Source of the DNA: Nitrospirota bacterium
Lineage (GTDB): Bacteria; Nitrospirota; Thermodesulfovibrionia; UBA6902; JAJYJJ01
Length of the DNA: 47,579 nt
Assembly (NCBI GenBank): GCA_021789595.1
Contig: JAJYJJ010000017.1
Span: forward strand, 1-47,579
Direction: 5' to 3'
Shown here: positions 24,088 to 25,708 of the stretch, one piece after another
Layout: each line of letters starts with the position of its first letter
Position numbering within the stretch: the stretch's first letter is position 1
Notes under the pieces: model-generated
What the model was told of the DNA's origin: nothing
The model's input: only the letters and a program-made list of their open reading frames with translations
The model's database searches: none
Translations under genes and position numbers: made by a program

Positions 24088-24248
24088 GGTAAGATCGAAA
24101 AACCCTTACCATATCAAAGCGACCTTCAAGATTCCTTCATAATTTTCTATTATCCTATTACTACCGCTGTAAAAAACCATTTATAGCAAGGGGGCAATGT
24201 GATAGAATCATAATGAGTGGAAGTTCCGGAATCCAGAAAGGAGGAGTA

Positions 24249-24638
24249 ATGAGGAGATTTATCATTTTTGTTATGTTGCTGGCATCTGTCTTTTCTTTCT
24301 CAACAAATGTCATGGCCGTAAAGAAAGTAAAGACAGACCAATCCCTGCGCCGCGGTGAAACAAGGACAACCCTTGACCCAAAATTATTCAGCAACCCCAG
24401 GGTAAGGCGGGCATATCAGGTTGCAAAGGATATCCCAGCGGTTCTGGATAGCATATATTGTTATTGCCAGTGTGAACAGGGATTCGGACATAAGAGTCTT
24501 CTGAGTTGTTATGTTGATAATCACGCCTCACAGTGAGACATATGCCTTGGGGAGGCCCTGCGGGCCTCCGAGCTTTATAAGAAGGGTTATCCTGTAAAGA
24601 GGATAAAGGAGATTGTGGAGAAGGAATTCAAGAGATGA
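24249..24638 (+). CDS. CYCXC-family selenoprotein (UGA at codon 96 read as Sec)
   Basis: An exported 129-residue thiol/selenol protein. The start at 24249 (MRRFIIFVMLLASVFSF, a signal peptide) follows GGAGGAG. The motif YCYCQCEQGFGHKSLLSC and VDNHASQ match the CYCXC/PCYCGC family, whose members have Cys or Sec after HA.. . Here TGA (24534-24536) occupies that site and the same frame continues as DICLGEALRASELYKKGYP to a second TGA at 24636. That second TGA overlaps the ATG of the tlpA-like gene (ATGA), as expected for a coupled operon. A hairpin 15 nt after the UGA is a candidate SECIS. Redox function in the envelope is inferred; the selenium machinery is not in the window. Confidence 0.85.
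24537..24572 (+). promoter_or_regulatory. Candidate bacterial SECIS element
   Basis: Directly 3' of the in-frame UGA, GGAGGCCC (24551-24558) pairs perfectly with GGGCCTCC (24562-24569) around a TGC loop. The loop lies about 23 nt after the UGA, inside the range known for bacterial SECIS, and contains a G. No T-run follows, so it does not look like a terminator. Confidence 0.75.
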
Positions 24639-25153
24639 GGCTCAAGGCTGTTATCCTTGCTGTTGTTATCATAATCGCAATGATCGTCCTTTCCCTTATG
24701 TTGCCGAAAGAGGAGGGACATAAGATTGCGGCGGTTGTCGGCCTTGAGGCGCCTGATTTCCAATTGAAGGACACCAATGGCAATGTGTGGAAATTATCCA
24801 ATCTAAAAGGGAGGGTTGTGTTTGTAAACTTTTGGGCATCGTGGTGCGCCCCGTGCAGGGAGGAGATGCCTTATATGGAGAGCCTCTATAAGAAGATGCA
24901 GGGCAGGCCCTTTCAGATGCTGGCTATCCTCTACAAAGACGACCCTGCTACAGCTATGTCATATATGAAAAGGAATGGCCTTGACTTTCCTGTTCTCCTT
25001 GACCCTGACGGGAAGACCGCAAAGGAATACGGCATAACAGGTGTGCCGGAGACTTACCTTGTTGATAAGACATCAATCCTCAGAAAGAAGTTTGTTGGGC
25101 CAGAGCCGTGGGACAGCCCTGAGGCGCTGGCACTGATAGGAGAGATGCTATAA
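24635..25153 (+). CDS. TlpA/ResA-like membrane-anchored thioredoxin
   Basis: A 172-residue thiol-disulfide oxidoreductase. The N-terminal signal anchor (LKAVILAVVIIIAMIVLSLML) is followed by an AhpC/TSA-Redoxin fold: VGLEAPDFQLKDTNGN, VFVNFWASWCAPCREEMP with the CAPC active site at about 72-75, the cis-Pro region GITGVPETYLVDK, and FVGPEPWDSPEA. It starts inside the stop codon of the selenoprotein gene, so the two are almost certainly cotranscribed and may act together in envelope thiol chemistry such as cytochrome c or cofactor maturation. Confidence 0.92.
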   Translation: MRLKAVILAVVIIIAMIVLSLMLPKEEGHKIAAVVGLEAPDFQLKDTNGNVWKLSNLKGRVVFVNFWASWCAPCREEMPYMESLYKKMQGRPFQMLAILYKDDPATAMSYMKRNGLDFPVLLDPDGKTAKEYGITGVPETYLVDKTSILRKKFVGPEPWDSPEALALIGEML

Positions 25154-25171: not shown

Positions 25172-25708
25172 ATGCAGATTCCACAGCAGTGTAAACTCTT
25201 TGTTGGTCTGCTCACAAATGAGGTCTTTCTCTTTGATGAGATAAAGCAGGAGCTAAATGAGATATTCGGGCAGATAGACTTAGAAGGCCCTGTCTGGCCC
25301 TGGCAGCACACGGACTATTATTTAAAGGATATGGGGGACGACCTGAAAAGGAAGTTTCTGTTTTTCAAAAATCTGATAAGGCCGGAGGATATCTCCAGGA
25401 TAAAGATAAATACGATGGATATAGAGCAGAGGTTTTTGAGGAAGGATGGCGGCAGAAGGGTCAATATAGATCCGGGTTATATAGATTTTGCAAGGGTTGT
25501 CCTTGTGTCAAGCAAGGACTTTAGCCACAGGCTCTATCTCGGCCATGGCATATATGCAGAGGTGGCCCTCAGCTTTGTGAAGAAAGGTTATCAGCCCCTA
25601 CCTTATACATATCCTGATTTCCGCTCTGCTGAATACATAGAGCTTTTCGGCAGGGCAAGAGAACTCTATAGCGCCCAGATAAAGAGAGGCCAATCCGCAC
25701 AAGCCTAA
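25172..25708 (+). CDS. DUF4416 family protein
   Basis: A 178-residue soluble protein recognised by the DUF4416 pattern: KLFVGLLTNEVFLFDEI at the start, then FGQIDLEGPVWPWQHTDYY, KRKFLFFKNLIRPEDI, VNIDPGYIDFARVVL and YTYPDFRSAEYIELF near the end. The function of the family is not known to me; the name 'GTP-binding protein' sometimes attached to it has no support here, as no P-loop is visible. A ribosome-binding site ACGGAGG precedes the ATG. It is 18 nt downstream of the tlpA-like gene and probably ends that operon. Confidence 0.85.
   Translation: MQIPQQCKLFVGLLTNEVFLFDEIKQELNEIFGQIDLEGPVWPWQHTDYYLKDMGDDLKRKFLFFKNLIRPEDISRIKINTMDIEQRFLRKDGGRRVNIDPGYIDFARVVLVSSKDFSHRLYLGHGIYAEVALSFVKKGYQPLPYTYPDFRSAEYIELFGRARELYSAQIKRGQSAQA

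Follow-up and report, generated by a model that had tools for sequence, protein, structure and literature searches.

Does the short reading frame that starts at position 24249 end at its in-frame TGA, or is that codon read as selenocysteine (Sec)? The frame lies in a 47,579-nucleotide stretch of a Nitrospirota bacterium genome (GenBank assembly GCA_021789595.1, contig JAJYJJ010000017.1, positions 1 to 47,579), referred to here as the window. The gene has the following features.

24240..24246, + strand: likely Shine-Dalgarno sequence, the purine-rich GGAGGAG directly 5' of the ATG (sequence reading)
24249..24638, + strand: predicted CYCXC family (OS_HP4) selenoprotein gene, 129 residues including Sec96, matching NF041379 and PF13798
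24459..24473, + strand: CYCxC motif TGTTATTGCCAGTGT (C71 Y72 C73 Q74 C75), its three Cys unchanged across 78 aligned sequences
24534..24536, + strand: in-frame TGA, predicted selenocysteine, the U of UDIC; exclusively TGA, TGC or TGT in 77 readable relatives

A sequence-only reading of this DNA had proposed that the frame runs past the TGA for 33 codons, that its final TGA overlaps the ATG of a thioredoxin-like gene, and that the product carries YCYCQC, a further Cys and U..C. All of this was borne out. TGA 24534-24536 is codon 96 of the frame from ATG 24249, and exactly 33 sense codons (DICLGEALRASELYKKGYPVKRIKEIVEKEFKR) separate it from the stop at 24636-24638, which overlaps the ATG at 24635-24637. 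The motif residues are C71-Y-C73-Q-C75, H81, C87 and H92-A-x-x-U96-x-x-C99, with U96-D-I-C99 forming a UxxC motif. Its hydrophobic N-terminus (MRRFIIFVMLLASVFSFSTNVMA) predicts that the protein is exported. No further selenoprotein gene stood out in the window when read-through and ordinary ORF listings were compared by coordinates only.

The product matches the profile NF041379, "CYCXC family (seleno)protein", with 129.8 bits (cut-off 90) over residues 38-127, a span that includes the TGA and covers profile positions 1-89 of 90. It also matches PF13798 (PCYCGC) with 46.7 bits (gathering score 25). Two reviews, both crediting Zhang and Gladyshev 2007, list a "hypothetical protein OS_HP4" with the motif UxxC (PMC9312934, PMC13188914). 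Because of the NF041379 match and this listing, we regard the gene as one of a known kind: the selenoprotein family has been known since 2007, and the window gene is a rescued truncated gene and one more member.

Relatives exchange Sec and Cys at this position. In a sample of 150 related genomes, 52 had a match above the NF041379 cut-off (56 matches in all), and an in-frame TGA lies inside 52 of these matches (one has two TGAs) and inside none of the other 4. A set from named genomes retained 80 loci from Nitrospirota, Rokuibacteriota, Methylomirabilota, Myxococcota, Thermodesulfobacteriota and others. UxxC could be read in 78 of the 80, with TGA in 52, TGC in 19, TGT in 6 and NGA (one undetermined base) in 1. 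All 77 readable loci therefore carry either a Sec or a Cys codon and no other, in agreement with the proposal that Sec 96 replaces an expected Cys. Relatives that end at the TGA, with nothing conserved beyond it, would have told against a selenoprotein; instead, the 33 following codons are conserved across phyla. Eighteen residues are invariant, including C48, C50, C52, H58, C64, H69, U/C73 and C76 (mature numbering). On a tree of 79 proteins, built from few columns and with many forks unresolved, 4 changes suffice to explain the distribution of Sec and Cys labels, compared with 21.7 when the labels are shuffled. The window protein falls within a 28-row set, all Sec (support 98/86), and we call it Nitrospirota-type because the other members of this set are Nitrospirota.

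Some family members depart from the usual arrangement. In two loci, L122 and L125, the TGA is separated from the last Cys by one residue more than in UxxC (HGATUIDIC and HGATUIDYC). One genome, G143, contains four CYCXC copies, of which two are stop-free, one has one TGA and one has two.

A perfect 8-bp hairpin had been noted at SECIS distance from the TGA.

24551..24569, + strand: candidate bacterial SECIS hairpin, 8-bp stem GGAGGCCC/GGGCCUCC, supported by synonymous recoding and recurrence in relatives

The stem (24551-24558 paired with 24562-24569) is indeed perfect, closes a UGC loop (24559-24561) and starts 14 nt past the UGA. The fold is unremarkable against a plain dinucleotide shuffle (z = -1.22), but this null is uninformative for a hairpin that sits in coding sequence, so we recoded each peptide synonymously 200 times with the codon use of the same locus. 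Against these recodings the window hairpin gave z = -3.49, with 1 of 200 as stable, a positive result for a SECIS search downstream of the TGA. The mean z was -2.90 in 53 Sec genes and -0.27 in 25 Cys genes. This is a strong contrast but not a formal test, since the two sets are not matched for phylum or peptide and genes that are related do not count as independent. We consider this comparison the strongest new evidence presented here.

All 8 pairs are kept in 36 of 36 genes (the Nitrospirota-type Sec genes, the window and L089), a set selected for keeping all 8. Within it, three of the pairs show double changes, which replace G-C by A-U in 8 genes, G-C by U-A in 1 and C-G by A-U in 1. Rokuibacteriota-type Sec genes do not keep all 8 pairs, yet the stretch is still more stable than its recodings, so those genes use a different hairpin. 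Together, these comparisons indicate that hairpin 24551-24569 acts as a bacterial SECIS element, selected in Sec forms only.

The genome also encodes the selenium machinery; a lack of selB or selC would have spoken against the reading, but all four genes sought, selA, selB, selC and selD, are present.

C27:44840-48102: selA and selB, side by side (618.8 and 390.1 bits)
C4:144914-145007: selC, anticodon UCA (Rfam 71.1 bits; ARAGORN tRNA-SeC (tca))
C11:110795-111715 (L020): selD, the match containing an in-frame TGA

The six-frame listing of L020 shows VRAAGUAGKLG close to the N-terminus of the selD frame. A Sec or Cys residue in this region is known from selenophosphate synthetases, and with its in-frame TGA (AGUAGKLG) the selD product is probably itself a selenoprotein, a known arrangement. 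As selB occurs in 135 of the 150 related genomes, its presence alone discriminates little. It was not found at E <= 1e-60 in three TGA carriers (G026, G033 and G045), which are draft or incomplete genomes (78-96% complete). By comparison among relatives we show UGA decoding, Sec/Cys exchange and a SECIS element, all as predicted from sequence. The window gene is almost certainly a true selenoprotein, and scarcely less surely one that belongs to the CYCXC/OS_HP4 family.

What the protein does is a separate question, and its neighbours bear on it.

24635..25153, + strand: TlpA/ResA-like thioredoxin-fold gene with WCAPC (Redoxin 109.2 bits, AhpC-TSA 104.3 bits)
25172..25708, + strand: DUF4416 gene, following on the same strand (PF14385, 190.6 bits)

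The product of the first gene does not reach the curated cut-offs of the ResA, DsbE and TlpA models, so its identity is certain at the superfamily level only. We surveyed neighbours by clustering flanking ORFs and scanning one representative per cluster with Pfam. All tallies that follow are lower bounds, because they count mechanically called ORFs in flanks that extend at most 6 kb and are often truncated where a contig ends. Nitrospirota Sec genes lie near genes for a YtkA-like protein, an outer membrane factor, a CusB-like adaptor and an RND pump (CusA), and 23 of the 36 Nitrospirota-type loci have at least one component of a Cus-type efflux pump nearby. Among Cys genes, mostly Myxococcota-type, genes within 5.5 kb downstream encode ResB (9/25), CcsA (10/25), TlpA (9/25) and CcdA (7/25), and a TPR protein is also found beside Cys forms. 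Some other family loci have YHS/TRASH proteins and P-type ATPase fragments nearby.

The earlier proposal was a selenol/thiol redox pair with the TlpA protein; taken strictly, the selenoprotein would then serve TlpA alone as its thiol-redox partner and would not be a metal protein. The coupling to TlpA stands in part. The stop of the window gene and the tlpA start overlap by 4 nt (ATGA), and an NTGA overlap (ATGA or TTGA) recurs in five Nitrospirota loci (the window, L059, L081, L086 and L088), with an ORF of similar length to the DUF4416 gene (172-178 aa) following TlpA in L059, L081 and L088. Each of TlpA, CcsA, ResB and CcdA also lies near 7 to 10 of the 25 Cys-form loci. However, TlpA is adjacent in just 5 of the 36 Nitrospirota-type Sec loci, so the partnership applies to a minority of the close relatives; in Nitrospirota a Cus-type RND metal efflux operon is a more frequent neighbour than TlpA. 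The eight conserved possible ligands also suit metal binding, and we consider a dedicated TlpA partnership possible but doubtful.

The same Cys-form neighbourhoods (ResB, CcsA, TlpA, CcdA and the TPR protein) could indicate a role in cytochrome c maturation, like that of the thiol-disulfide factors CcmH and CcmG. A structural model from 78 sequences, with Sec replaced by Cys, reached a mean pLDDT of 91.0 and a pTM of 0.84. A PDB sequence search found no solved structure of a relative, and a fold search found nothing significant (none below E = 4.8). Its top row was the E. coli CcmH N-terminal domain (E = 4.8, TM 0.41), which is at chance level, and most Sec forms have no cytochrome c assembly neighbours. 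We regard this role as unlikely. In the same model the Sec position (residue 73 of the mature form) immediately precedes helix 74-88. The reactive cysteine of a CxxC motif usually occupies such a place.

Two further alternatives concern the decoding itself. In one, UGA 96 is read as cysteine, not Sec, by a second, tRNA-Sec-like tRNA of the selC* tRNA-Cys type, and the genome does contain such a gene.

L012:1501-1595 (contig 33:30449-30543), - strand: second tRNA-Sec-like gene, anticodon GCA (Rfam 55.5 bits)

This gene, which ARAGORN does not call, has the anticodon loop CUGCAAA and a T after the acceptor stem, and the ORF beside it is TusA/YedF-like, as named from sequence. Such a T has been reported in selC* tRNA-Cys from Nitrospirae and other groups (PMC7609411), and the gene looks like one of these. 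UCA anticodons occur in some selC* tRNA-Cys from other bacteria (PMC7609411), which lends the idea some substance. However, the anticodon here is GCA, which should read UGC and UGU and not UGA, whereas the UCA anticodon belongs to the ordinary selC, and selA, selB and selD are all present; reading of UGA 96 as cysteine is thus very improbable. Weaker still, with next to no probability, is a gene that ends at the TGA as a 95-residue protein with the remainder untranslated or decayed: the standard code does close the frame at 24534-24536, but conservation of the 33 codons beyond it across phyla refutes this end. In 25 relatives a Cys codon leads into these codons, and the hairpin, which encodes the same peptide, is under selection in TGA forms only.

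Taking UGA 96 as Sec, we propose the following mechanism. SelB bound to hairpin 24551-24569 would deliver Sec-tRNA(Sec) to UGA codon 96. The product would be small and exported, and besides its CYCxC cluster it would have another Cys, two His and a UxxC selenol/thiol pair at the start of a helix, where the selenol would raise reactivity. Outside the cytoplasm it may act on soft metals (Cu(I)-like), bound by the Cys/His/Sec set, and/or as a thiol/selenol redox carrier, and it could be re-reduced by the TlpA/ResA protein where that gene is coupled, as in the window. We give such a metal or redox role outside the cytoplasm an even chance. A bolder and quite unlikely extension is that the availability of selenium controls the neighbour. 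Ribosomes would have to decode the UGA as Sec before they could arrive at the ATGA overlap, which would tie tlpA translation to Sec incorporation, and the pair would make up a selenium-dependent periplasmic metal-handling/redox unit. If true, a selenium-gated tlpA pair would be a role not described for the CYCXC family in the papers that we found.

A gene cut at residue 95 by the standard code is now restored. Our literature search found no functional data on the CYCXC family, and the comparative set offers a testable role for this uncharacterised group: metal efflux genes of the Cus type accompany the Sec forms, and cytochrome c assembly genes accompany the Cys forms. It also provides a clean contrast in SECIS selection between Sec and Cys genes.

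Among known systems, the window gene is closest to CYCXC/OS_HP4 (NF041379), with which it has in common the full domain, the UxxC motif and the Sec position. OS_HP4 was reportedly found in an Olavius algarvensis symbiont (Zhang and Gladyshev 2007); the window gene differs in that it belongs to a Nitrospirota-type genome and is coupled to tlpA. The product of the neighbouring gene has the WCxPC thioredoxin-like domain of TlpA/ResA thiol-disulfide proteins. The CYCxC core is also common to the window protein and the PCYCGC lipoproteins of Bacillales (PF13798). In Parageobacillus, a PCYCGC lipoprotein has an Fe3+-binding protein as its neighbour, and the passage that describes it does not mention Sec (PMC13068155).
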